A stretch of DNA of 64,000 nt from Rhodothermus bifroesti (GTDB lineage: Bacteria > Bacteroidota > Rhodothermia > Rhodothermales > Rhodothermaceae), in the NCBI RefSeq assembly GCF_017908595.1, contig NZ_JAGKTL010000001.1, forward strand, positions 496,001 to 560,000, given 5' to 3'. Shown piece by piece: positions 7,235-49,160 of this stretch (the first letter of the stretch is position 1; every line of letters begins with the position of its first letter). The notes under the pieces were generated by a model. It saw only the letters and a program-made list of their open reading frames with translations. It searched no databases and had not been told where the DNA came from. Position numbers and translations under genes: made by a program.

Positions 7235-7822
7235 GACACACCCTCCCAAGCACTGTCGGTAAACAACCGCAAACCAACGAGGTGGAGCATTCAGAGTTCC
7301 CGGAAATATCCAAGTGAAGCCCTCAAAACCCTCTCTACTGCACGGATTTTCTAAGCTATTTTCCCTAGAAACTCGGCAGGACTTCACGCAACAGGCCAAA
7401 CGCCTTGCAAAACGCCGGGTTCAAGACTTTCCCTAAGCAGTAAGGTTCAGCATCGTAACATTACACAGCCCAACTTGCGGTTCAGCATCCGAAGCTGTAG
7501 CATTACTTTACACCCGGGTAACAGGCGCGGGGAGTGCACAAGCCTCTCTAAAACTGTGGATAACTTGTGCAAAACCCCGCCCAAAGTGCACAACTGCCTA
7601 CTTTCTGCTTTTGCCCTGTGGCTTTAGGCAAAAAGACGTGAATTTTAACCACACCTTAACATTACAAGTGTTTATAAAACAAATACTTGTATAAAACGAG
7701 CACATGTGGACAACTTGTGGAAAACATACTGGAGCTATAGCAGAAGCAACCACGTTACCCACAGGAAACCCACAGGTTGTGCATAAGTGGTGTATAACCT
7801 ATGGCGTGCTAAAGCCGTGTGT
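7235..7822. promoter_or_regulatory. Spacer upstream of dnaA with a cluster of DnaA boxes
   Basis: This 588-base noncoding spacer divides yceD and dnaA. It holds one perfect box, TGTGGATAA at 7555-7563 (reverse of TTATCCACA). Further matches to TTWTNCACA on the minus strand are at 7566-7574, 7716-7724 and 7778-7786, and one-mismatch boxes lie at 7705-7713 and 7755-7763. An AT-rich tract lies at about 7641-7700. Short repeats also occur: GGTTCAGCATC at 7444 and 7479, and TAACATTAC at 7456 and 7657. The boxes fit DnaA autoregulation or an auxiliary origin element. Confidence 0.75.
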
Positions 7823-9397
7823 ATGGAGTTTTCTGCGTTGAACACCTTGCCAACATTTGTGACGACACCGCCTGCGGGCATGGAGCGAACACCAGAAGCA
7901 GTCTGGAAAGCTTGTCTCGAGATCATTCGAGACAACGTCAGTCGGCAGAGCTACAAAACCTGGTTTGAACCGATTAAGCCGCTCAGCCTTGTAGAAGAGG
8001 CAGAGCAAATTAAGCTGACGGTACAACTTCCCAGCCGGTTTTACTATGAATGGCTAGAAGAGCACTACTACAGTCTGCTGCGCAAAACCATTACCAAGGT
8101 GCTGGGGCCGCGGGCGCGCCTGTTTTATAAGATTGTAATCGAGAAAGAAGACCCCGAAAGTGGCTTTGAGGGTGCCACAATGAGCCTGCCAGCCCGTACG
8201 ACGGAAGAGCCCCCTCCTGTGCCCCGCCCTGTGGCCTCACGACAAGAACCCTTGGAAGAAACCACCCCTACGGCCCTTTTACCCCCTTCAGCAGCCGAGT
8301 CAAGAAAAGCAGAACCGGTTATCGCCCATCCGTTTGCCATCCCTGGCATCCGCCGCATTCAGGTTGATAGCAATTTGGACCCCGACTATACGTTCGACCG
8401 ATTTATTGAAGGCGACTGCAATCGCTTAGCCCGGAGTGCTGCCCTAGCTATTGCCAAGCAGCCAGGCACGACCAGTTTTAATCCTTTTCTGGTTTACGGC
8501 GGTGTCGGTTTAGGAAAAACCCACCTGATTCAAGCTATTGGGAACTATGCCCGCCAGTACCGCACTGCGGAAACGATCCTCTACGTCTCTAGCGAGCGCT
8601 TTACGAATGAATTTGTACAGGCCATCCAGCACAATCGGATAAGCGAGTTTTCAATGTTTTATCGCCAGATTGATTTGCTTATCGTAGACGACATCCAGTT
8701 CTTTGGAGGCAAAGAGAAAACCCAAGAAGAGTTTTTCCACATCTTCAACGCACTGCACCAAGCGGGCAAGCAGATCGTGCTTTCCGCTGACCGGCCACCG
8801 AGAGAAATTCCCGGCATTGAAGAACGCCTGCTCTCTCGGTTCCAATGGGGACTTACGGTCGACGTGCAACCGCCAGACTTAGAAACCCGCATCGCGATTC
8901 TGCGCCGCAAAGCCGAAGATGAAGGCATTGAACTCAAAGACGAAGTCATCGAGTTCATTGCCCATCACATCAAAAGCAATATCCGCGAGCTGGAAGGGGC
9001 TTTGCTTCGCCTGGTGGCCCATTCTGCTTTCCATAAGTGCGAAACTGACATAAACTTAGCCCGAGAAGTGCTGCGCGATCTGATTAAAGACACCCGTGTT
9101 ACGCTAACGGTTGAGGAAATTCAACAGATCGTCTGTGAGTACTTCCGGATTCCTCCCGACCAAGTGCGGGCCAAAACGCGCAAACGCGAGGTCGTGCAAG
9201 CCCGTCAGGTAGCCATGTACTTTTGCAAACACTTTACCCAGCACTCGCTAAAGTCCATTGGCCTGTATTTTGGCGGCCGAGATCACTCCACGGTCATCCA
9301 CGCTATCCAAAGCGTACAAGACCAAATGGAGACAGATCCTAATTTCCGTGAACTCATCGAAGCGCTGCAGCATAAAATTTCCTTGCGCAGCCGCTAA
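7823..9397 (+). CDS. dnaA: Chromosomal replication initiator protein DnaA
   Basis: DnaA is the AAA+ initiator that binds DnaA boxes and opens the origin. From the ATG at 7823 it has 524 residues. Domain I contains VWKACLEIIRDNVSRQSYKTWF. A Pro-rich linker follows at about 115-175, then the AAA+ domain with Walker A GGVGLGKTH (about 226) and Walker B LLIVDD (about 285). The C-terminal box-binding helix carries GGRDHSTVIHA (about 484). An ATG at 7880 is also possible and would trim 19 residues; an in-frame GTG lies at 7787. Several DnaA boxes sit directly upstream, and dnaN follows by 62 bases. Confidence 0.97.
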   Translation: MEFSALNTLPTFVTTPPAGMERTPEAVWKACLEIIRDNVSRQSYKTWFEPIKPLSLVEEAEQIKLTVQLPSRFYYEWLEEHYYSLLRKTITKVLGPRARLFYKIVIEKEDPESGFEGATMSLPARTTEEPPPVPRPVASRQEPLEETTPTALLPPSAAESRKAEPVIAHPFAIPGIRRIQVDSNLDPDYTFDRFIEGDCNRLARSAALAIAKQPGTTSFNPFLVYGGVGLGKTHLIQAIGNYARQYRTAETILYVSSERFTNEFVQAIQHNRISEFSMFYRQIDLLIVDDIQFFGGKEKTQEEFFHIFNALHQAGKQIVLSADRPPREIPGIEERLLSRFQWGLTVDVQPPDLETRIAILRRKAEDEGIELKDEVIEFIAHHIKSNIRELEGALLRLVAHSAFHKCETDINLAREVLRDLIKDTRVTLTVEEIQQIVCEYFRIPPDQVRAKTRKREVVQARQVAMYFCKHFTQHSLKSIGLYFGGRDHSTVIHAIQSVQDQMETDPNFRELIEALQHKISLRSR

Positions 9398-9459: not shown

Positions 9460-10599
9460 ATGCGTTTCACTGTGAACTCGACCGATTTGCTTAAAGCCCT
9501 TACCACGGTGGCCGGAGCCGTACCTTCCAAGGCCACGATGCCCATTTTAGAGTGTATTCTTTTTGAAGCTAGTGGCGAGACGCTGCTGCTGAAGGCCACA
9601 GATTTAGAAATCTCCATTGCAGAGCGACTCGCGGTCCGCATGGAACCACAAAACGGAACGCTTGGAGCCCGACGCGTCGCCGTACCCGCCCGTCGACTGC
9701 TCGAAACACTGCGTGCCCTACCAGACCAGCCTGTCCAGTTCGCAGCCGACGAGTCCTTTACGGTAACGCTGACCACCGAGCAGGGACATTATAAAATGGT
9801 CGGCTTCGACGGTGCCGACTATCCCGCGTTGCCTGAACTGGAAGAAGCCCATATGATTTCTATTGAGGCACAGCTCATTCGGCGGGCCATCCAGAAAACC
9901 GCGTTTGCAGTAAGTAAGGATGCGCTTCGCCCTGCCATGATGGGCATCTTTTTCCAGATTTTGCCTGAAGAAGGACGCGTTGTCTCCACCGATGGGCACC
10001 GCTTGGTGCGCTTCCGGCTTCGGGAGTTGACCTATCCTAAACCTTTAGCTTTTATTGTACCAGAAAAGGCGACCACGCTGGTGGCACGCTTGGCCGCGCA
10101 CGCCGATGGAAGCCTCACCTTGCGCGTAGGCGAACGTCACGTTGCCTTTGATCTCGGTAGTGCACGCATCCTTAGCCGCCTTATTGACGAAGTCTACCCC
10201 AACTACGAAGCGGTTATTCCGCTGGAAAACGACCGGCGCCTAACCGTAGATCGCAATGCATTTCTGGCTGCCGTTAAGCGCGTAGGCCTATATGCTTCGA
10301 CCACAACCAACCAAGTACGCCTACGCCTAGAAAAAAATCACGTAGAAATTGCTGCCGAAGATATCGAGCGGGCCAGTGAAGCCTACGAGCGCATTCCCTG
10401 TGCCTACGAAGGGGAGCCTATGGTGATCGGCTTTAATGCCAGCTACCTGACCGAAGTCGTAGGGAACGTCGATTCCGATGAAGTGGTGCTGGAGTTTAGC
10501 TCGCCTAACCGTGCAGGGGTGGTTACGCCGCATGACCAGGCCGAAGGGGAAGACCTACTGATGCTGATCATGCCGGTCATGCTCAACACGTACGCTTAA
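9460..10599 (+). CDS. dnaN: DNA polymerase III subunit beta (sliding clamp)
   Basis: The beta clamp encircles DNA and tethers polymerase and repair proteins. The 379-residue product begins MRFTVNSTDLLKAL. It shows the three repeated clamp folds and ends in the conserved LIMPVM segment, where protein partners dock. AGAGGGG lies just before the ATG. It follows dnaA, probably in one transcript. recF does not follow; instead a convergent gene ends on the same TTAA. Confidence 0.97.
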   Translation: MRFTVNSTDLLKALTTVAGAVPSKATMPILECILFEASGETLLLKATDLEISIAERLAVRMEPQNGTLGARRVAVPARRLLETLRALPDQPVQFAADESFTVTLTTEQGHYKMVGFDGADYPALPELEEAHMISIEAQLIRRAIQKTAFAVSKDALRPAMMGIFFQILPEEGRVVSTDGHRLVRFRLRELTYPKPLAFIVPEKATTLVARLAAHADGSLTLRVGERHVAFDLGSARILSRLIDEVYPNYEAVIPLENDRRLTVDRNAFLAAVKRVGLYASTTTNQVRLRLEKNHVEIAAEDIERASEAYERIPCAYEGEPMVIGFNASYLTEVVGNVDSDEVVLEFSSPNRAGVVTPHDQAEGEDLLMLIMPVMLNTYA

Positions 10600-30197: not shown

Positions 30198-31268
30198 ATG
30201 TCCCGCTACTTGCTCCTATGGGTCTGGGTCATGCTTTCGAGCTCGGCATTCGCCCAACCGCAAAAAGTTGATGACGTAGTGATCGACACCACGCACGCAC
30301 CAGCCTCCCCGCCTCGCACGTATTCACTTCCTTTCGTGCGTGTTGAAGGCAACCGTTTTGTCGACGAAAACGGCCGCACGCTCGTTTTCCGAGGCGTATC
30401 GATTGCCGATCCTGACCGACTGGAGCGCATTGGCAAATGGAATAAAACGCTTTTTGAAGTGATCAAAAAAGACTGGAATGCCAACATTGTCCGCATTCCG
30501 GTCCACCCCCAAGCTTGGCGCGAGCGTGGCGCGTCGGCGTACCTAAAACTTCTCGACCAAGCGGTTGCGTGGGCTAATGCGCTGCAGCTTTACTTGATCA
30601 TTGACTGGCATAGCATTGGTAACTTGCGCACAGAGCTCTTTCAGCACCCGATGTATAACACCACCAAAACGGAGACTTTCCGTTTCTGGAAAACCATTGC
30701 AGAGCACTTTCGCCATAATCCGATCGTGGCTTTCTATGAGCTTTTTAACGAACCCACCCATTTTAACGGTACGCTAGGTCGCATGTCTTGGGAAGAGTAC
30801 AAGGCCATTATAGAAGAAATCATCTACATCATCTACGCGCACGACCAGACCGTCATCCCCCTGGTAGGGGGCTTTGATTGGGCCTACGACCTCACTCCGG
30901 TTCGTGAGCATCCCATTAACTTTCCCGGGGTTGCCTACACGGCGCATCCCTATCCTCAAAAACGCCAGCCCCCTTGGGAAGAAAAATGGGAGCAAGACTG
31001 GGGATTTGTGGCAAACACGTATCCGGTGTTTGTTACCGAACTGGGGTTCATGAGCGCAGACGGCCCTGGTGCCCACGTTCCAGTAATTGGCGATGAGACG
31101 TATGGTGAAGCAATCCTTCGCTACATGGAACAAAAGGGGATTTCTTGGACGGCATGGGTATTTGATCCCGTTTGGTCCCCGCAACTCATCGCCAATTGGG
31201 ATTTTGAACCTACACCTCAGGGCCGATTTTTCCGTGACAAAATGCGCCAGCTTAACCCACGAAACTAA
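30198..31268 (+). CDS. Secreted GH5 glycoside hydrolase (cellulase-like)
   Basis: The 356-residue enzyme has a signal peptide ending AFAQ (about 1-20) and a GH5 barrel. The segments are FRGVSIADPDRL, NIVRIPVHPQAW, LIIDWHS, ELFNEPTH (acid/base Glu185) and FVTELGF (nucleophile Glu281). It likely cleaves beta-1,4-glucan or mannan. The ATG at 30198 is chosen for the signal peptide; an ATG at 30165 would add 11 residues. No sorting domain is attached, unlike the GH26 protein. Confidence 0.92.
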   Translation: MSRYLLLWVWVMLSSSAFAQPQKVDDVVIDTTHAPASPPRTYSLPFVRVEGNRFVDENGRTLVFRGVSIADPDRLERIGKWNKTLFEVIKKDWNANIVRIPVHPQAWRERGASAYLKLLDQAVAWANALQLYLIIDWHSIGNLRTELFQHPMYNTTKTETFRFWKTIAEHFRHNPIVAFYELFNEPTHFNGTLGRMSWEEYKAIIEEIIYIIYAHDQTVIPLVGGFDWAYDLTPVREHPINFPGVAYTAHPYPQKRQPPWEEKWEQDWGFVANTYPVFVTELGFMSADGPGAHVPVIGDETYGEAILRYMEQKGISWTAWVFDPVWSPQLIANWDFEPTPQGRFFRDKMRQLNPRN

Positions 31269-31326
31269 TTTGAAATGCTGTCTTAAGCTTTAAGGGGTTG
31301 ATTTAAGGACCTGAAAACCGTTTGCG

Positions 31327-32043
31327 ATGCGTGCTCCTGCGGGGTGGGTAGGGTGGATGGTGCTGCTCCTTCCGGCTTGGCAAGCCTGGGCTCAGCAAGC
31401 TGCCGATAGTAGTCGCGCAGACCCATACGGAACGGGCTTAGGCTTTCAGATTTTGTTGACCAACAGTGGATTTGGGCTTGGCGGCTATTATCACCGTTCG
31501 ATAGCTACAGATGTGCAGTTTTTGATCGATTTGAGTTTAAGTGCGGGCAAAGACGAGCGCGAGCAGAAGTTTTACAACCCGATTACGGGTGCCAGTTACA
31601 TTCAAAACAAGGCAAACTATCTCCTTCTCCTTCCTTTTCAAGCAGGGGTGCAACGGCGCCTTTGGCGTGAGCAGATTGCAGATAACCTGCGTCCTTACGT
31701 GCAATTTTCTGCAGGACCGACGCTGGGGTGGGTTTATCCCTACTTTGACGATCGCAACAAGAATAATCGCTATGAGCCTGAGCTAGGCGAGCGTATTTAT
31801 GATGTATTTCAAGCGCTGCCCAAAGGCCGTTTGCACACCGGTATTGGAGGTATGGTGGTGTTTGGAGCTTATTTTGGCAGTAGCCATCGGGCAGCCCAAG
31901 GCATACGCTTCGGCTATATGCTCCACTATTTTCCTCGTCCAGTTCAACTATTAGAAGGCAACACACCCCCGCAGCGCTTTTTTGGAACACCCATAATCAG
32001 CCTAACCTTTGGCCGGCTTTACGACCCACGGTTTAGACATTAA
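31327..32043 (+). CDS. Secreted protein, probable outer-membrane beta-barrel
   Basis: I do not recognise a named family. The 238-residue product has a signal peptide ending AWAQ. Alternating strands rich in Gly, Tyr and Phe follow (GTGLGFQILLTNSGFGLGGYYH, LRPYVQFSAGPTLGWVYP). A DDRNKNNRYEPE loop resembles calcium-binding insertions. It ends in an aromatic strand, typical of small outer-membrane barrels. It overlaps the end of convergent ychF by 11 bases. Confidence 0.65.
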   Translation: MRAPAGWVGWMVLLLPAWQAWAQQAADSSRADPYGTGLGFQILLTNSGFGLGGYYHRSIATDVQFLIDLSLSAGKDEREQKFYNPITGASYIQNKANYLLLLPFQAGVQRRLWREQIADNLRPYVQFSAGPTLGWVYPYFDDRNKNNRYEPELGERIYDVFQALPKGRLHTGIGGMVVFGAYFGSSHRAAQGIRFGYMLHYFPRPVQLLEGNTPPQRFFGTPIISLTFGRLYDPRFRH

Positions 32044-35053: not shown

Positions 35054-37453
35054 ATGCCCGTGGGCATGTTTCGCAATGCACCGCTTGCCTGGACGGCTAT
35101 TTGCCTGAGCCTGGGGATATTGCTTGCCGATCGGTTAAGCTGGCCAGTTTTGGTTTGGCTTGCCGTAGCTGCAATCGCTGGGGGGATCACGCTGGGTTTG
35201 CTTTTTAGGAAACATCGCTCGCTGTTTTTAGCCCTTCCTTTAGGGCTGCTGTTTTTAGGCACGGGTGCAGCTCACTGGCAATTGTGGTTTTCTCCTAGGC
35301 CGAACTCGATCCCCACCGATACTACCGCGATCGCATGGGTTACTGTGCGTAGCGCGCCACAACCTACCTCTTATGGCTTACGCTTTAGGGCAGAGGTGCA
35401 AATGCTCCTGGTGGGAAAAGACACGTTGCGCCTTCCTTTTTTTCTGGAAATCGTGGTGTCTGGGGTAGACACTTTACAGCATGGTCTGCCTGAGCTCCGT
35501 TGCGGCGACCAGATATTTGTGGGTGGACGCTTAGAGCCTCTTCCAGCCCCTCGAAATCCGGGACAGATAGACCACCGGCCGCGGCTGCGTCGCCAAGGTG
35601 TTGTTGCTCAGCTAAGGGTTCAAGACCCCCGACTTTTACAACCTATAGTCTCTGGCCAATGCTTCCCCTATAGCTGGCTGGAGCCGCTAAAACGCCGCAT
35701 CAAGCAGGACCTTACGCAAGCCATTCCAGATCCGGAAGCGCAATCTATCGTGCAAGCCCTTGTGCTAGGGGATCGATCGGGCTTGCACTGGGAAACGCGT
35801 GGGCAGCTAGGTCGGGCTGGCCTGGCCCACCTGCTGGCAATTTCTGGGCTGCATGTGATGTTTGTTGGTTTGGTTCTTTATGCGCTTTTGCGGCCGCTTC
35901 TGCTTCGCTTAGGTTTAAGCTGGTGGGGCATGGAATGGACGCGTACGCTACTTACACTGCTCATTGTTCTCGGCTACGTATGGCTAGCAGGAGCTCCTGC
36001 CTCGGCCGTGCGCGCTTTGGTTATGACAGGACTGCTGCTAGGCGCTACGCTCCGGCAGGTTCCTGCGCATCCTTTCAACTCCCTAGGTGCAGCCGCGCTG
36101 CTTATCCTTCTTGTGGATCCATCACAGCTTTTTGAACCAGGGTTTCAGCTTTCCTTTGCCGCTGTCTGCGGGCTGATTGGTGGACTTGGCTCACTACAGC
36201 AGCATTTACCCAAACGCCTGCTGCGATCCAGCATAGGACGCTACCTAACCGGGAGCTTACTGGCCACCTTGACAGCCACGTTGGCTACAGCTCCTTTTAT
36301 GCTTTTGCATTTTGGCTATGTATCTTGGGCTGGACTTCCCTTAAACCTTATAGGTATTCCACTGGGCTCAGGTGCTCTAAGCGCTGGACTGCTTACTGCC
36401 CTAAGCGCGCTGCTAAGTCCTGCGGTAGGACAACTGTTTGGCGGTGCAGCTACGCTGTGTGCTCAAGGGCTGCTTTGGCTAGGTAGTTTGGCCGACAAGG
36501 CGTTTGCCGGGTGGGTTATGTACTATCCCCATCCTCCTTTATGGCTCTTGCTGCTGCCTCCGTTGCTTTTAGGCCTGCTTAGCCGCTCTTTTAAATTCCG
36601 TCGCCTTGCTTTGGGTCTGATGCTTGGCTGCAGCTGTGCCGGGGTGTGGCTTAGCCGACCTGTTTCCCCCACCCTAGATGTGGTGTTTTTTGATGTAGGA
36701 CATGGGGATGCCACCCTGATTCGCACCCCAAACGGCCGACACCTGCTTATCGACGTCGGCGGCTATGCCTTTGAAGAAGCAACTCTCTATTGGAATGTGC
36801 TTCCCTTTCTACGTTGGCAAGGCATCCATTACTTAGATGTGCTCTTACTTACCCATCCTGATGCTGACCATATTGGCGGTGCACCGACGCTTTTACGCCG
36901 CATCAAAGTTGGACGCGTGCTGGACAACGGCGCTTCCGACACTTCTCGCATCGCTCGAGAAGTGCAGCAGGTACTGGATAGTCTAGGACTTGCTCGCTAT
37001 CCCTTAGCGGCAGGAGACACGATTCACTTGGAAGATGCCGTTGTGCTCCAAGTACTGGCTCCGGGTGTTGCTTCGATGCAGCCGTCTGATAACGAACGCT
37101 CTGTAGTACTGCGCATGGTCTATGGCAACACCCGTTGGCTTTTTCTTGGGGATGCTGAAGCAGGGTTAGAAAGCCAGCTTGTTCGAGCCTACGGCGCACT
37201 GCTTCAAAGCGACGTGGTCAAAGTTGGCCATCACGGATCTTCAACCAGCAGTACACCAGCCCTGGTGGAGGCAGTCTTTCCAGAAACCACCCATGCTGGG
37301 TGGGCCGTCATCAGTACCGGATGGCGCGGTGTAAGCCCGCAGGTACATCAGCGATGGCTCCAGCAGAAAGCAAAAGTATGGATCACGGCAACTTCCGGTG
37401 CACTTTGGCTACGCAGCGATGGGCGGCACATTTGGCCTGTCAATCAGTGGTAA
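35054..37453 (+). CDS. comEC: ComEC/Rec2 DNA uptake channel protein
   Basis: ComEC forms the inner-membrane channel for transforming DNA. The 799-residue protein has N-terminal helices and a soluble OB-like segment (DUF4131, about 40-210). The polytopic competence domain starts at GLAHLLAISGLHVMFVGL. A C-terminal metallo-beta-lactamase domain (about 545-799) has FFDVGHGDATLI, THPDADHIGG and KVGHHGSSTSS. All three regions are intact, so natural competence is possible. The 3' end overlaps the convergent stress protein gene by 10 bases. Confidence 0.95.
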   Translation: MPVGMFRNAPLAWTAICLSLGILLADRLSWPVLVWLAVAAIAGGITLGLLFRKHRSLFLALPLGLLFLGTGAAHWQLWFSPRPNSIPTDTTAIAWVTVRSAPQPTSYGLRFRAEVQMLLVGKDTLRLPFFLEIVVSGVDTLQHGLPELRCGDQIFVGGRLEPLPAPRNPGQIDHRPRLRRQGVVAQLRVQDPRLLQPIVSGQCFPYSWLEPLKRRIKQDLTQAIPDPEAQSIVQALVLGDRSGLHWETRGQLGRAGLAHLLAISGLHVMFVGLVLYALLRPLLLRLGLSWWGMEWTRTLLTLLIVLGYVWLAGAPASAVRALVMTGLLLGATLRQVPAHPFNSLGAAALLILLVDPSQLFEPGFQLSFAAVCGLIGGLGSLQQHLPKRLLRSSIGRYLTGSLLATLTATLATAPFMLLHFGYVSWAGLPLNLIGIPLGSGALSAGLLTALSALLSPAVGQLFGGAATLCAQGLLWLGSLADKAFAGWVMYYPHPPLWLLLLPPLLLGLLSRSFKFRRLALGLMLGCSCAGVWLSRPVSPTLDVVFFDVGHGDATLIRTPNGRHLLIDVGGYAFEEATLYWNVLPFLRWQGIHYLDVLLLTHPDADHIGGAPTLLRRIKVGRVLDNGASDTSRIAREVQQVLDSLGLARYPLAAGDTIHLEDAVVLQVLAPGVASMQPSDNERSVVLRMVYGNTRWLFLGDAEAGLESQLVRAYGALLQSDVVKVGHHGSSTSSTPALVEAVFPETTHAGWAVISTGWRGVSPQVHQRWLQQKAKVWITATSGALWLRSDGRHIWPVNQW

Positions 37454-38280
37454 ATAAAAAGAGGCAAAGTCGTTTTTTCCAAAAGCGCCGAGGTAGAGGA
37501 TCCAAAAAGCCAACGCTTTAAACCACTTGTGGCATACGCACCAGCAACAACCAAGTCGGCCTTGACCTCTTCAGCAAAACGAACAATCTCCTCAGCAACA
37601 CTTTCGCTACTACGGACTGTAGTATTAAGAATAAACCCATGTTCTTGAAGGTATTCTTCCATAAGTGAAAGCATAAGGCGTGCTTCAGAAGTGTCCTCTG
37701 AGATGGTAAGGACTTCTAGCGCAACCTCAGTTCCAAAAGGCTTAAGCTGAGCAAAACGCTGGATTGCTCGAGCTGCTGCAGCGCTGCCATCATAGGCTAT
37801 AAGCACGCGATGAATTGCGCGGTATACCTCACCGACCACAAGTACAGGGCCGACGCTTTCGTGTACCACCCGGACGAGCGTTTTATTTTTCTCTTCGGGA
37901 TGGCTGTAAAAAAAGTGGGGCTCTTTACCTACCACAAGCAGGTCGTGATACTTCATGTCTTCTATAATCCGCTGAAAAGGCACCCCTTCAGCGACGGTAT
38001 TGCGGTGCCGTAAGCCCTCTTCATCGGCAACGGCGTCAAATTCCTCAATAAGCCGACGGGCTACCAGATGGGCTTCTTCGGTGAGCTGTTCACGTAGCTT
38101 TACGGCATAATACATACTTCCAATACCTCCTCCGCGAATGCTAGCTTCGATGTGGCCCGTGTCAACAACAGCCAGTCCAGTTACGCTGGCACCATGACGG
38201 CGAGCGAGTTCTGAAGCGTAGCGAACGGCAGTTCGCGTATCGGTGTCTGGATCAAGGGCTACAAGGATACGCCGGATCAT
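37444..38280 (-). CDS. Tandem universal stress protein (UspA family)
   Basis: The 278-residue product has two Usp domains. The first begins IRRILVALDPDTDTRTAVRYASELA and the second HRVLIAYDGSAAAARAIQRFA. The second domain keeps an ATP-binding-like end, VVAGAYATSGLKRWLFGSSTSALLEKT. The first has a longer insert (GGGIGSMYYAVKL). The ATG at 38280 is chosen because the open frame beyond it enters the DnaA-box block. It is transcribed away from that block. Confidence 0.92.
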   Translation of the reverse strand: MIRRILVALDPDTDTRTAVRYASELARRHGASVTGLAVVDTGHIEASIRGGGIGSMYYAVKLREQLTEEAHLVARRLIEEFDAVADEEGLRHRNTVAEGVPFQRIIEDMKYHDLLVVGKEPHFFYSHPEEKNKTLVRVVHESVGPVLVVGEVYRAIHRVLIAYDGSAAAARAIQRFAQLKPFGTEVALEVLTISEDTSEARLMLSLMEEYLQEHGFILNTTVRSSESVAEEIVRFAEEVKADLVVAGAYATSGLKRWLFGSSTSALLEKTTLPLFIYH

Positions 38281-38774
38281 AGACTGCTTAACAGCTTGTG
38301 GAAAGGTTAGCCTGGAGGTAAAAGTAAGCGTTTTGATACCACTGCACAAATGCTCTTGAGGCGGTGAAAGCAGCTTTTTCAACAATAGGTTTTTTTAAAA
38401 AAGCAGTGTTGTCGTTGTTATAGCACGCTGTGGAAATGTGGAAAGTGAAGTTGTGCACAGCGACTTTATAGCTTTGTGGATAAACAGCCCAACTATTCCA
38501 CCACTTTATCCACAAAGCCTTTGGTTCAAAGGTCATTTTTGAGCTTTTTAAGGCGTTTATTTACTGTTTTCCACGTTTCCACATCAATTCATGGCTAACG
38601 CCAAACGTTCAGCGTCCACGTTATCCCCCATTGTCCACATCGTGGAAAAGCGGGGATAACGTGGGGAAAGTGGGGAGGTTTTGTACACCTAAGCTGTGCA
38701 GCAAAACTTTTCCCCGACTTATCCGCAGCGTTATCCCCTGCTATCCACAGGTAATCCACGTTGTGCATAATAGC
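38281..38774. other. DnaA-box cluster, candidate chromosomal origin of replication (oriC)
   Basis: This 494-base noncoding block lies between usp and pgi. Perfect boxes are TGTGGATAA at 38475-38483 and TTATCCACA at 38506-38514. TGTGCATAA at 38762-38770 also fits TTWTNCACA. Boxes one or two bases off include 38429, 38437, 38451, 38567, 38575, 38631, 38641, 38719, 38741 and 38752. TTATCCCC/TTTTCCCC variants lie at 38621, 38651, 38708 and 38731. AT-rich tracts lie at 38388-38425 and 38533-38566. The + strand shifts from C-rich to G-rich across the block. No gene or promoter function explains this density. Origin function is inferred. Confidence 0.75.
38471..38518. repeat. 14-base inverted repeat containing two perfect DnaA boxes
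   Basis: GCTTTGTGGATAAA at 38471-38484 is repeated in inverted form at 38505-38518 with a 20-base spacer. Each arm carries one perfect consensus DnaA box, the two facing opposite ways. No T run follows, so it does not look like a terminator. Confidence 0.9.
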
Positions 38775-40049
38775 TTAGGCGTGGCCGAGAAGCCGGTACA
38801 TTTCCCGTTTATAGGCCTCAACGCCAGGCTGGTCGAAAGGATTGACCCCAAGTAAGTAGCCGCTGATGGCTACGGCATGCATAAAGAAGTACAGGCAGGC
38901 GCCTAGAGCGTTTGGGCTAAGGTGCTCTAGCCAGATCGTTGAGACTGGAACGCCACCTTCAGCATGAGCTTTACGGGTGCCTTCGTAGGCGATGCGGTTG
39001 ATCTCTTGAAAGGAACGGCCAGAAAGGTAGGCTAGACCATCTAAGTCATCTCCGGTGTCTGGAACCAGTAGGGGGTCAGGTTCGCGTTCAACCATCAGGA
39101 AAGTTTCAATTAGATGTCGCCTTCCTTCCTGGACATACTGTCCTAACGAGTGTAGATCCGTTGAGTACTGAACTGTGTCGGGATAGAGTCCCTTACCTTG
39201 TTTCCCTTCGCTTTCTCCAAAAAGCTGCTGCCACCAAGCGCCAATGCCGCTTAGGCGAGGTTCAAAGACAGCAAGGAGTTCGAGGGCGTAGCCGCGTTCA
39301 TAAAGCAAGTAGCGCAGTGCAGCGTAGTTGAGGGCAGGGTTATCGAGAGGATTGGAGAGTCGTTCGCAGGTCTCGACAGCACCGTAGAAAAGCGAGCGAA
39401 TGTCAACCCCAGCTACAGCGATAGGTAGCAAACCAACGGCAGTTAAAACAGAAAACCTTCCGCCTACATTCGGTGGGATGGCAAAGCGTGGGTAGCCGTA
39501 AGTACGGGCCATCTCAAGCAGACGGCCATGGGCAGGATCGGTGGTCACAAGAATACGTCGGCTGGCATCGGGAAAGCGGGCTTCCATCCAGGGACGAAGC
39601 ACGCGAAAGGCCAACATTGTCTCAAGGGTAGTTCCACTTTTAGAAACAACGTTGAGGTACACCGATTTGCCTTCAAGGTAGTTGAGGAGTGCTTTGAGAT
39701 AGCTTCCACTGAGGTGGTGACCAGCGAAGAGGATTTCGGGCGTAGGAGCAAGGTGTCTAAAAGAGGGGGTAAGGGCTTCAATGACAGCGCGTGCCCCTAA
39801 GTAGGATCCGCCAATACCCAGACACAAAAAGACGTCGGCCTGCTCGCGAATTTCGGCAGCAGTAGCATCGAGCATTTCGAGCAGTGCGTCGTCGGGTTTG
39901 CGTAATAGCTCACGCCAGCCAAGCATTTCGTGCCCAGGTCCTGTGTGCTCCAAAAGCATCTTTTGGGCGGCTTCGAGGCGTGGATGTATAGCTTCCCAAT
40001 CGTGGGGTTCTAAAAAAGCCAACGCGGGTGCATAGTCGTAGCGGAGCAT
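38775..40049 (-). CDS. pgi: Glucose-6-phosphate isomerase
   Basis: Pgi interconverts glucose 6-phosphate and fructose 6-phosphate. The 424-residue protein is of the shorter bacterial type. It has LGIGGSYLGARAVIEAL, VVSKSGTTLETMLAFRVLR, IPPNVGGRFSVLTAVGLLP and GESEGKQGKGLYP. These segments bind the sugar phosphate. Its stop directly borders the DnaA-box block. Confidence 0.96.
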   Translation of the reverse strand: MLRYDYAPALAFLEPHDWEAIHPRLEAAQKMLLEHTGPGHEMLGWRELLRKPDDALLEMLDATAAEIREQADVFLCLGIGGSYLGARAVIEALTPSFRHLAPTPEILFAGHHLSGSYLKALLNYLEGKSVYLNVVSKSGTTLETMLAFRVLRPWMEARFPDASRRILVTTDPAHGRLLEMARTYGYPRFAIPPNVGGRFSVLTAVGLLPIAVAGVDIRSLFYGAVETCERLSNPLDNPALNYAALRYLLYERGYALELLAVFEPRLSGIGAWWQQLFGESEGKQGKGLYPDTVQYSTDLHSLGQYVQEGRRHLIETFLMVEREPDPLLVPDTGDDLDGLAYLSGRSFQEINRIAYEGTRKAHAEGGVPVSTIWLEHLSPNALGACLYFFMHAVAISGYLLGVNPFDQPGVEAYKREMYRLLGHA

Positions 40050-47070: not shown

Positions 47071-47110
47071 AACAGGGAACGCCGAGCGTTGCGTCGCGTT
47101 GGCGTTGGCA

Positions 47111-47200
47111 GACCGTGGGGGTGCTCTGTCCGCACAAGGGCAGGGCTGAGAGCATACCCTTTGAACCTGATCCGGGTAATGCCGGCGCAGGGAAACGGTC
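47111..47200 (+). promoter_or_regulatory. TPP riboswitch (THI element) of thiC
   Basis: The conserved core is present: GGGGTGC, then GGCTGAGA, then ACCCTTTGAACCTGATCCGG and GTAATGCCGGCGCAGGGA. P1 is closed by GACCGT (47111-47116) with ACGGTC (47195-47200). This aptamer binds thiamine pyrophosphate and lies directly upstream of thiC. Confidence 0.96.
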
Positions 47201-47238
47201 ACCGATCGCGCCTGTCGCATTGGTGCCTTTCCGCTGCC

Positions 47239-49160
<1,922 letters not shown>

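Follow-up and report, generated by a model that had tools for sequence, protein, structure and literature searches.

The 494-bp spacer between the genes pgi and usp, at positions 38281-38774, is very probably oriC of the Rhodothermus chromosome, a single bidirectional DnaA-dependent origin (probability about 0.95, judged from sequence). The DNA analyzed here, referred to as the window, is a stretch of 64,000 nucleotides corresponding to C1:496001-560000 of its own genome (G000), a Rhodothermus assembly of 2.88 Mb in 8 contigs. A sequence-only reading had proposed the same assignment, and it is supported by the cluster of DnaA boxes, the switch in GC skew at the spacer, a skew minimum only 140 bp off in the complete congeneric genome G001, and the occurrence of a box-rich spacer across the order. 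Among the features by which an oriC is recognized, the whole pgi/usp spacer combines an intergenic cluster of DnaA boxes beyond chance, a minimum of cumulative GC skew (as sampled in its own genome of 8 contigs), an AT-rich and easily melted element beside the boxes, and a position that is conserved in relatives. Adjacency to dnaA, a common but not defining trait of oriC, is absent. As a kind of element, the dnaA-unlinked bacterial oriC is already known. The open-access papers searched contain no description of the Rhodothermus origin, and a deposited DoriC prediction may exist. Under this assignment, chromosome replication in Rhodothermus, and by homology in much of the order, would begin at pgi/usp and not at dnaA, the gene at which the sequence record of the complete congener G001 starts. 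Such a placement fixes strand assignments and supplies a fragment from which origin plasmids for a thermophile could be built.

The gene order at the locus is pgi, spacer, usp and comEC. Both conserved neighbors, pgi for glucose-6-phosphate isomerase (38775-40049) and usp for a universal stress protein (Pfam Usp; 37444-38280), are encoded on the minus strand. Since usp starts at 38280 and pgi ends at 38775, the spacer between them is exactly 494 bp long, as originally reported. The next gene past usp is comEC (35054-37453, plus strand). The replication initiator gene dnaA (7787-9397, plus strand), with dnaN next to it (9460-10599), starts 30.5 kb from the spacer, in agreement with the earlier estimate of about 30 kb. 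A conserved block upstream of usp at 38290-38335 (CTGAACAGCTTGG ... CTAAAAGTACGAGTTTT in congeners) is possibly the usp promoter.

The spacer contains two exact DnaA boxes (TTATCCACA), four boxes with one mismatch (38631, 38719, 38741, and 38762) and twelve with two mismatches, or cumulatively 6 boxes with at most one and 18 with at most two mismatches. The numbers expected by chance are 0.003, 0.11, and 1.5 for boxes with 0, 1, and 2 mismatches, respectively, and the observed counts were reached in none of 2000 first-order Markov simulations for any mismatch class. The sequence-only reading had listed three consensus 9-mers, of which those at 38475 (minus strand) and 38506 (plus strand) are exact, but the third, at 38762 (minus strand; TTATGCACA), fits the looser pattern TTWTNCACA and differs from the strict consensus at one position. 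The spacer is AT-rich as described, with 56% AT vs. 44% in the window. Only 15 exact boxes are present genome-wide in the window's own genome, and a scan of 699 kb of this genome, of the kind that had been proposed as a check, found three or more boxes per 494 bp only in the pgi/usp spacer and upstream of dnaA. A close pair of exact boxes occurs at just one other place in the genome, C1:277051-277178, where two boxes 119 bp apart form a possible titration site.

The exact boxes at 38475-38483 (minus strand) and 38506-38514 (plus strand) are located in the left and right arms, respectively, of a 14-nt perfect inverted repeat (38471-38484/38505-38518). The tandem boxes TTTCCACA-TTTCCACA (38429-38445, minus strand) face the unwinding element. 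Within them, TGTGGAAATGTG (38429-38440) is invariant across the seven Rhodothermus genomes, and in other families an equivalent tandem box pair precedes the DnaA-trios. The tandem degenerate boxes TTTTCCACG-GTTTCCACA (38567-38583, plus strand) are conserved in the genus. A further inverted repeat, CCACGTTATCCCCCATTGTCCAC/GTGGAAAAGCGGGGATAACGTGG (38616-38664), carries boxes at 38621 and 38631 (plus strand) and at 38641 and 38651 (minus strand). The array at the pgi end (38719-38770) consists of boxes at 38719, 38731, 38741, and 38752 (plus strand) and at 38762 (minus strand), and its sequences TTATCCCC and TCCACAGG are invariant in the genus. Overall, conservation among the Rhodothermus spacers is 0.91 in box-core columns vs. 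0.77 in the linkers (rotation p 0.0014).

The GC skew points to the same location. The cumulative skew of the 64-kb window has its minimum at 38193. For the own genome, skew was sampled in stretches of 5-10 kb across contig C1. Between 30 and about 534 kb these samples show negative skew, and between 536 and 868 kb they show positive skew, so that the switch coincides with the spacer, with weak exceptions in the first 5 kb (+0.036) and in one near-zero sample at 830 kb. A genome-wide minimum elsewhere, which had been named as evidence that would speak against an origin here, did not appear in this sampling. The hand counts that originally suggested the switch are exact (C 40 and G 18 in 37501-37620; G 38 and C 27 in the pgi lines), but they were small selected samples and the true effect is smaller. 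Over whole genes, the plus strand contains C 220 and G 199 in usp and G 380 and C 305 in pgi, which is the same direction as in the hand counts. At four-fold degenerate sites between dnaA and the spacer, plus-strand skew is -0.108 in plus-strand genes and -0.142 in minus-strand genes, and to the right of the spacer it is +0.138 and +0.235, respectively. Because the sign switches in genes on both strands, gene orientation does not explain the change, a point that had been argued before and holds here. A break in four-fold skew at 38.5 kb yields a log-likelihood gain of 66.7 vs. 5.4 for a break at dnaA. The best single breakpoint is at 34.5 kb (gain 75.1), 4 kb to the left of the spacer, which counts against the assignment; this offset is perhaps due to the little skew in comEC.

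Related genomes show similar patterns to differing degrees. In G001, a complete Rhodothermus genome in one contig, the skew of the first 60 kb reaches its minimum at 31161, adjacent to the homologous spacer at 31301-31798. Most skew samples of this genome up to 1.6 Mb are positive, and most of those from 1.8 Mb back to the start of the circle are negative, which puts the skew maximum about half a chromosome from the spacer. In G038, which belongs to a different family and has dnaA 30 kb off, the minimum is at 237346 and the sign changes at pgi. The skew of G012 is noisy, with a local minimum at 1154690 at the box cluster. In G016 and G036, which could have discriminated between the two sites because dnaA is far off, the skew is too weak for a decision, and G016 possesses just a local minimum inside the spacer.

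As in many bacteria, the origin might instead be a box cluster upstream of dnaA, in which case the spacer would be a DnaA-titration or regulatory site. Such a second cluster is present in the dnaA promoter region at 7555-7786, where 232 bp of AT-rich DNA contain six boxes that are exact or have a single mismatch. Its density is similar to that of the spacer, a point the earlier note did not weigh, and it includes the window's least stable 50-mer (7645). Moreover, the congeners have two conserved pairs of tandem boxes upstream of dnaA, with about 150 bp between the pairs and every box on the minus strand. However, skew is negative on either side of dnaA, and since there is no skew break at this gene, the cluster was rejected as the origin. 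In G001, the skew remains below zero between dnaA and about 30 kb, where it changes sign, and samples around dnaA in G012 and G038 are mostly negative on either side. The boxes upstream of dnaA also drop to 0-2 in several other families. An origin at dnaA is thus very unlikely. From general knowledge of dnaA promoters, the cluster at 7555-7786 probably serves dnaA autoregulation rather than acting as the skew origin.

The position of the spacer beside pgi and usp is conserved across the order. All six congeners and several other families retain the order pgi-spacer-usp. Each of the seven Rhodothermus spacers has 6-9 boxes with no more than one mismatch, and the spacers of other genomes that keep the pgi/usp pair have 1-8, vs. 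zero in pgi itself. When usp is not beside pgi (G012, G038, G029, and G019), the boxes can still adjoin pgi, and when pgi has moved or was not found nearby (G011, G014, G024, G025, G026, and G035), the module can stay beside usp. In G012, where usp is missing from the locus, a ComEC-like ORF, identified by eye from its translation, adjoins the putative oriC. The distance to dnaA is 30 kb in the window, G001, and G038, 36 kb in G033, 70 kb in G016, 110 kb in G017, 229 kb in G012, and 410 kb in G036, and box-rich pgi/usp spacers recur in the order even with dnaA 70-410 kb off. When 114 genomes of the order were searched for the box-trio motif TCCACA-N3-6-CTACTAYTA, 23 of them proved positive, with one match each. 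In 22 of these, representing nine families, the match is beside pgi and/or usp, and the remaining match is near a contig end. The comparison of spacers among relatives that had been suggested thus showed that a box-rich spacer next to pgi/usp is conserved throughout the order and that many families have the canonical box-trio module. Phylum-wide matches outside the class look like chance, with 0-1 boxes and no pgi/usp.

These comparisons also bear on two further explanations. The boxes upstream of dnaA and the pgi/usp spacer could be joined by a 30-kb DNA loop, forming a stretched version of the bipartite origins of the Bacillus or Helicobacter type. Both regions are box-rich, and they are the only two such clusters in the 699 kb scanned. 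However, the distance between them is not conserved, ranging from 30 to 410 kb, the boxes upstream of dnaA are lost in several families, and dnaA autoregulation accounts for their presence, so that a split origin appears extremely unlikely. That the boxes regulate usp transcription and the skew switch has another cause, such as an old inversion boundary, has an almost negligible probability: the spacer is upstream of usp and includes the conserved promoter-like block at 38290-38335, but the boxes persist in the genomes without usp next to pgi (G012, G038, G029, and G019), and one would not expect such a boundary to reappear at this location in different families or to be accompanied by a skew maximum half a chromosome off.

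Within the proposed pgi/usp origin, the probable duplex-unwinding element is at 38374-38423 and includes a T7A6 tract (38390-38402) and a period-3 run (38407-38419). This element is the least stable 50-mer of the spacer, with -1.186 kcal/mol per step vs. a window mean of -1.489. It ranks as one of the window's six least stable separate sites, and its position fits that expected of an unwinding site. In most families, the pgi-to-usp strand at this end of the spacer possesses tandem boxes, a short GC-rich gap, CTACTACTA, and AT-rich DNA. Where other families have CTACTACTA, the window genome possesses a single CTA trio (3'-GAT-5'; 38421-38423, minus strand), preceded by GTG and followed by the non-canonical (A/G)AC run AACAACGACAAC and TTTTTTAAAAAAA (minus strand). 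Reduced trios are also found in the congeners, CTTCTACTA in G002 and TTACTATTCCTG in G003. In 38403-38423 and in the spacers of G001-G006, an (A/G)AC period-3 run on the minus strand is located next to a T/A tract at the trio position.

This layout resembles the basal unwinding system (BUS), which consists of DnaA boxes, a short GC-rich spacer, and DnaA-trios, as in incC of Bacillus subtilis (Richardson et al., 2019, PMC6669920; Pelliciari et al., 2021, PMC8287927). A BUS has been predicted in the origins of 85% of 2070 species (PMC6669920, PMC8287927). The window spacer shares with it the dense boxes, the tandem pair facing an AT-rich element, and the strand order, and other families possess the textbook form, with the CTACTACTA run 4 bp from the second box and 12 bp from the first. 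The BUS rule calls for a DnaA box with at most two mismatches within 16 bp of at least three NAN trios (PMC8287927). G002, G003, and most other families have this combination at the homologous site, and in many genomes the frequency of an equal match among shuffles is zero or close to it. The combination is absent from the trio position of the window genome, which counts against the oriC assignment, and a match elsewhere in the window spacer is at chance level, being equaled in 31% of shuffles. Because only GTG-CTA is left before the (A/G)AC run, the window genome falls outside the strict BUS; a second difference is that its origin is not beside dnaA. Despite the degenerate trios, the boxes, AT tract, layout, and position of the melted element are retained. 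The degenerate trio run is the most unusual point of the Rhodothermus origin. Relatives with an intact unwinding motif and one genus with a degraded version together form a natural series. A rather doubtful explanation is that the module has drifted in Rhodothermus, with the CTA trios of relatives replaced by the (A/G)AC run beside the T/A tract, and that its DnaA either recognizes an altered single-strand code or opens the origin in a different way.

Origins unlinked to dnaA are on record, for example in Synechococcus lividus PCC 6715, where a DnaA-box cluster is likewise far from dnaA and dnaN (DoriC 10.0, PMC6323995). In contrast to that case, the alternative site of Rhodothermus at pgi/usp is kept across an order. 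Melioribacter roseus, a deep relative in the Bacteroidetes/Chlorobi, also has a single skew-defined origin with DnaA boxes, but there oriC lies between dnaA and dnaN rather than between pgi and usp (PMC3534657). In a sister order of the same class (family f18; L355-L365 and L367-L370), origin-like BUS loci possess the same box-trio module and box clusters as the pgi/usp order but have other neighbor genes in the three loci read, indicating that the site of the origin differs between the orders. These three are flanked by a dtd-like gene and, at the opposite end, by a DinB-like or PurM-like ORF, as identified by eye.

In the mechanism proposed for the pgi/usp origin, DnaA made 30 kb away would load onto the box array that occupies 38429-38770. 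Facing usp, the tandem boxes at 38429-38445 would guide DnaA onto single-stranded DNA just past the pair, where the AT-rich stretch 38374-38423 is predicted to melt and the helicase to be loaded. Following initiation, two forks would depart, one through usp and comEC toward dnaA and the other through pgi. Elsewhere in the window, a TPP riboswitch (Rfam RF00059, 71.7 bits) is located at 47107-47211, ahead of the ORF at 47283-49160.
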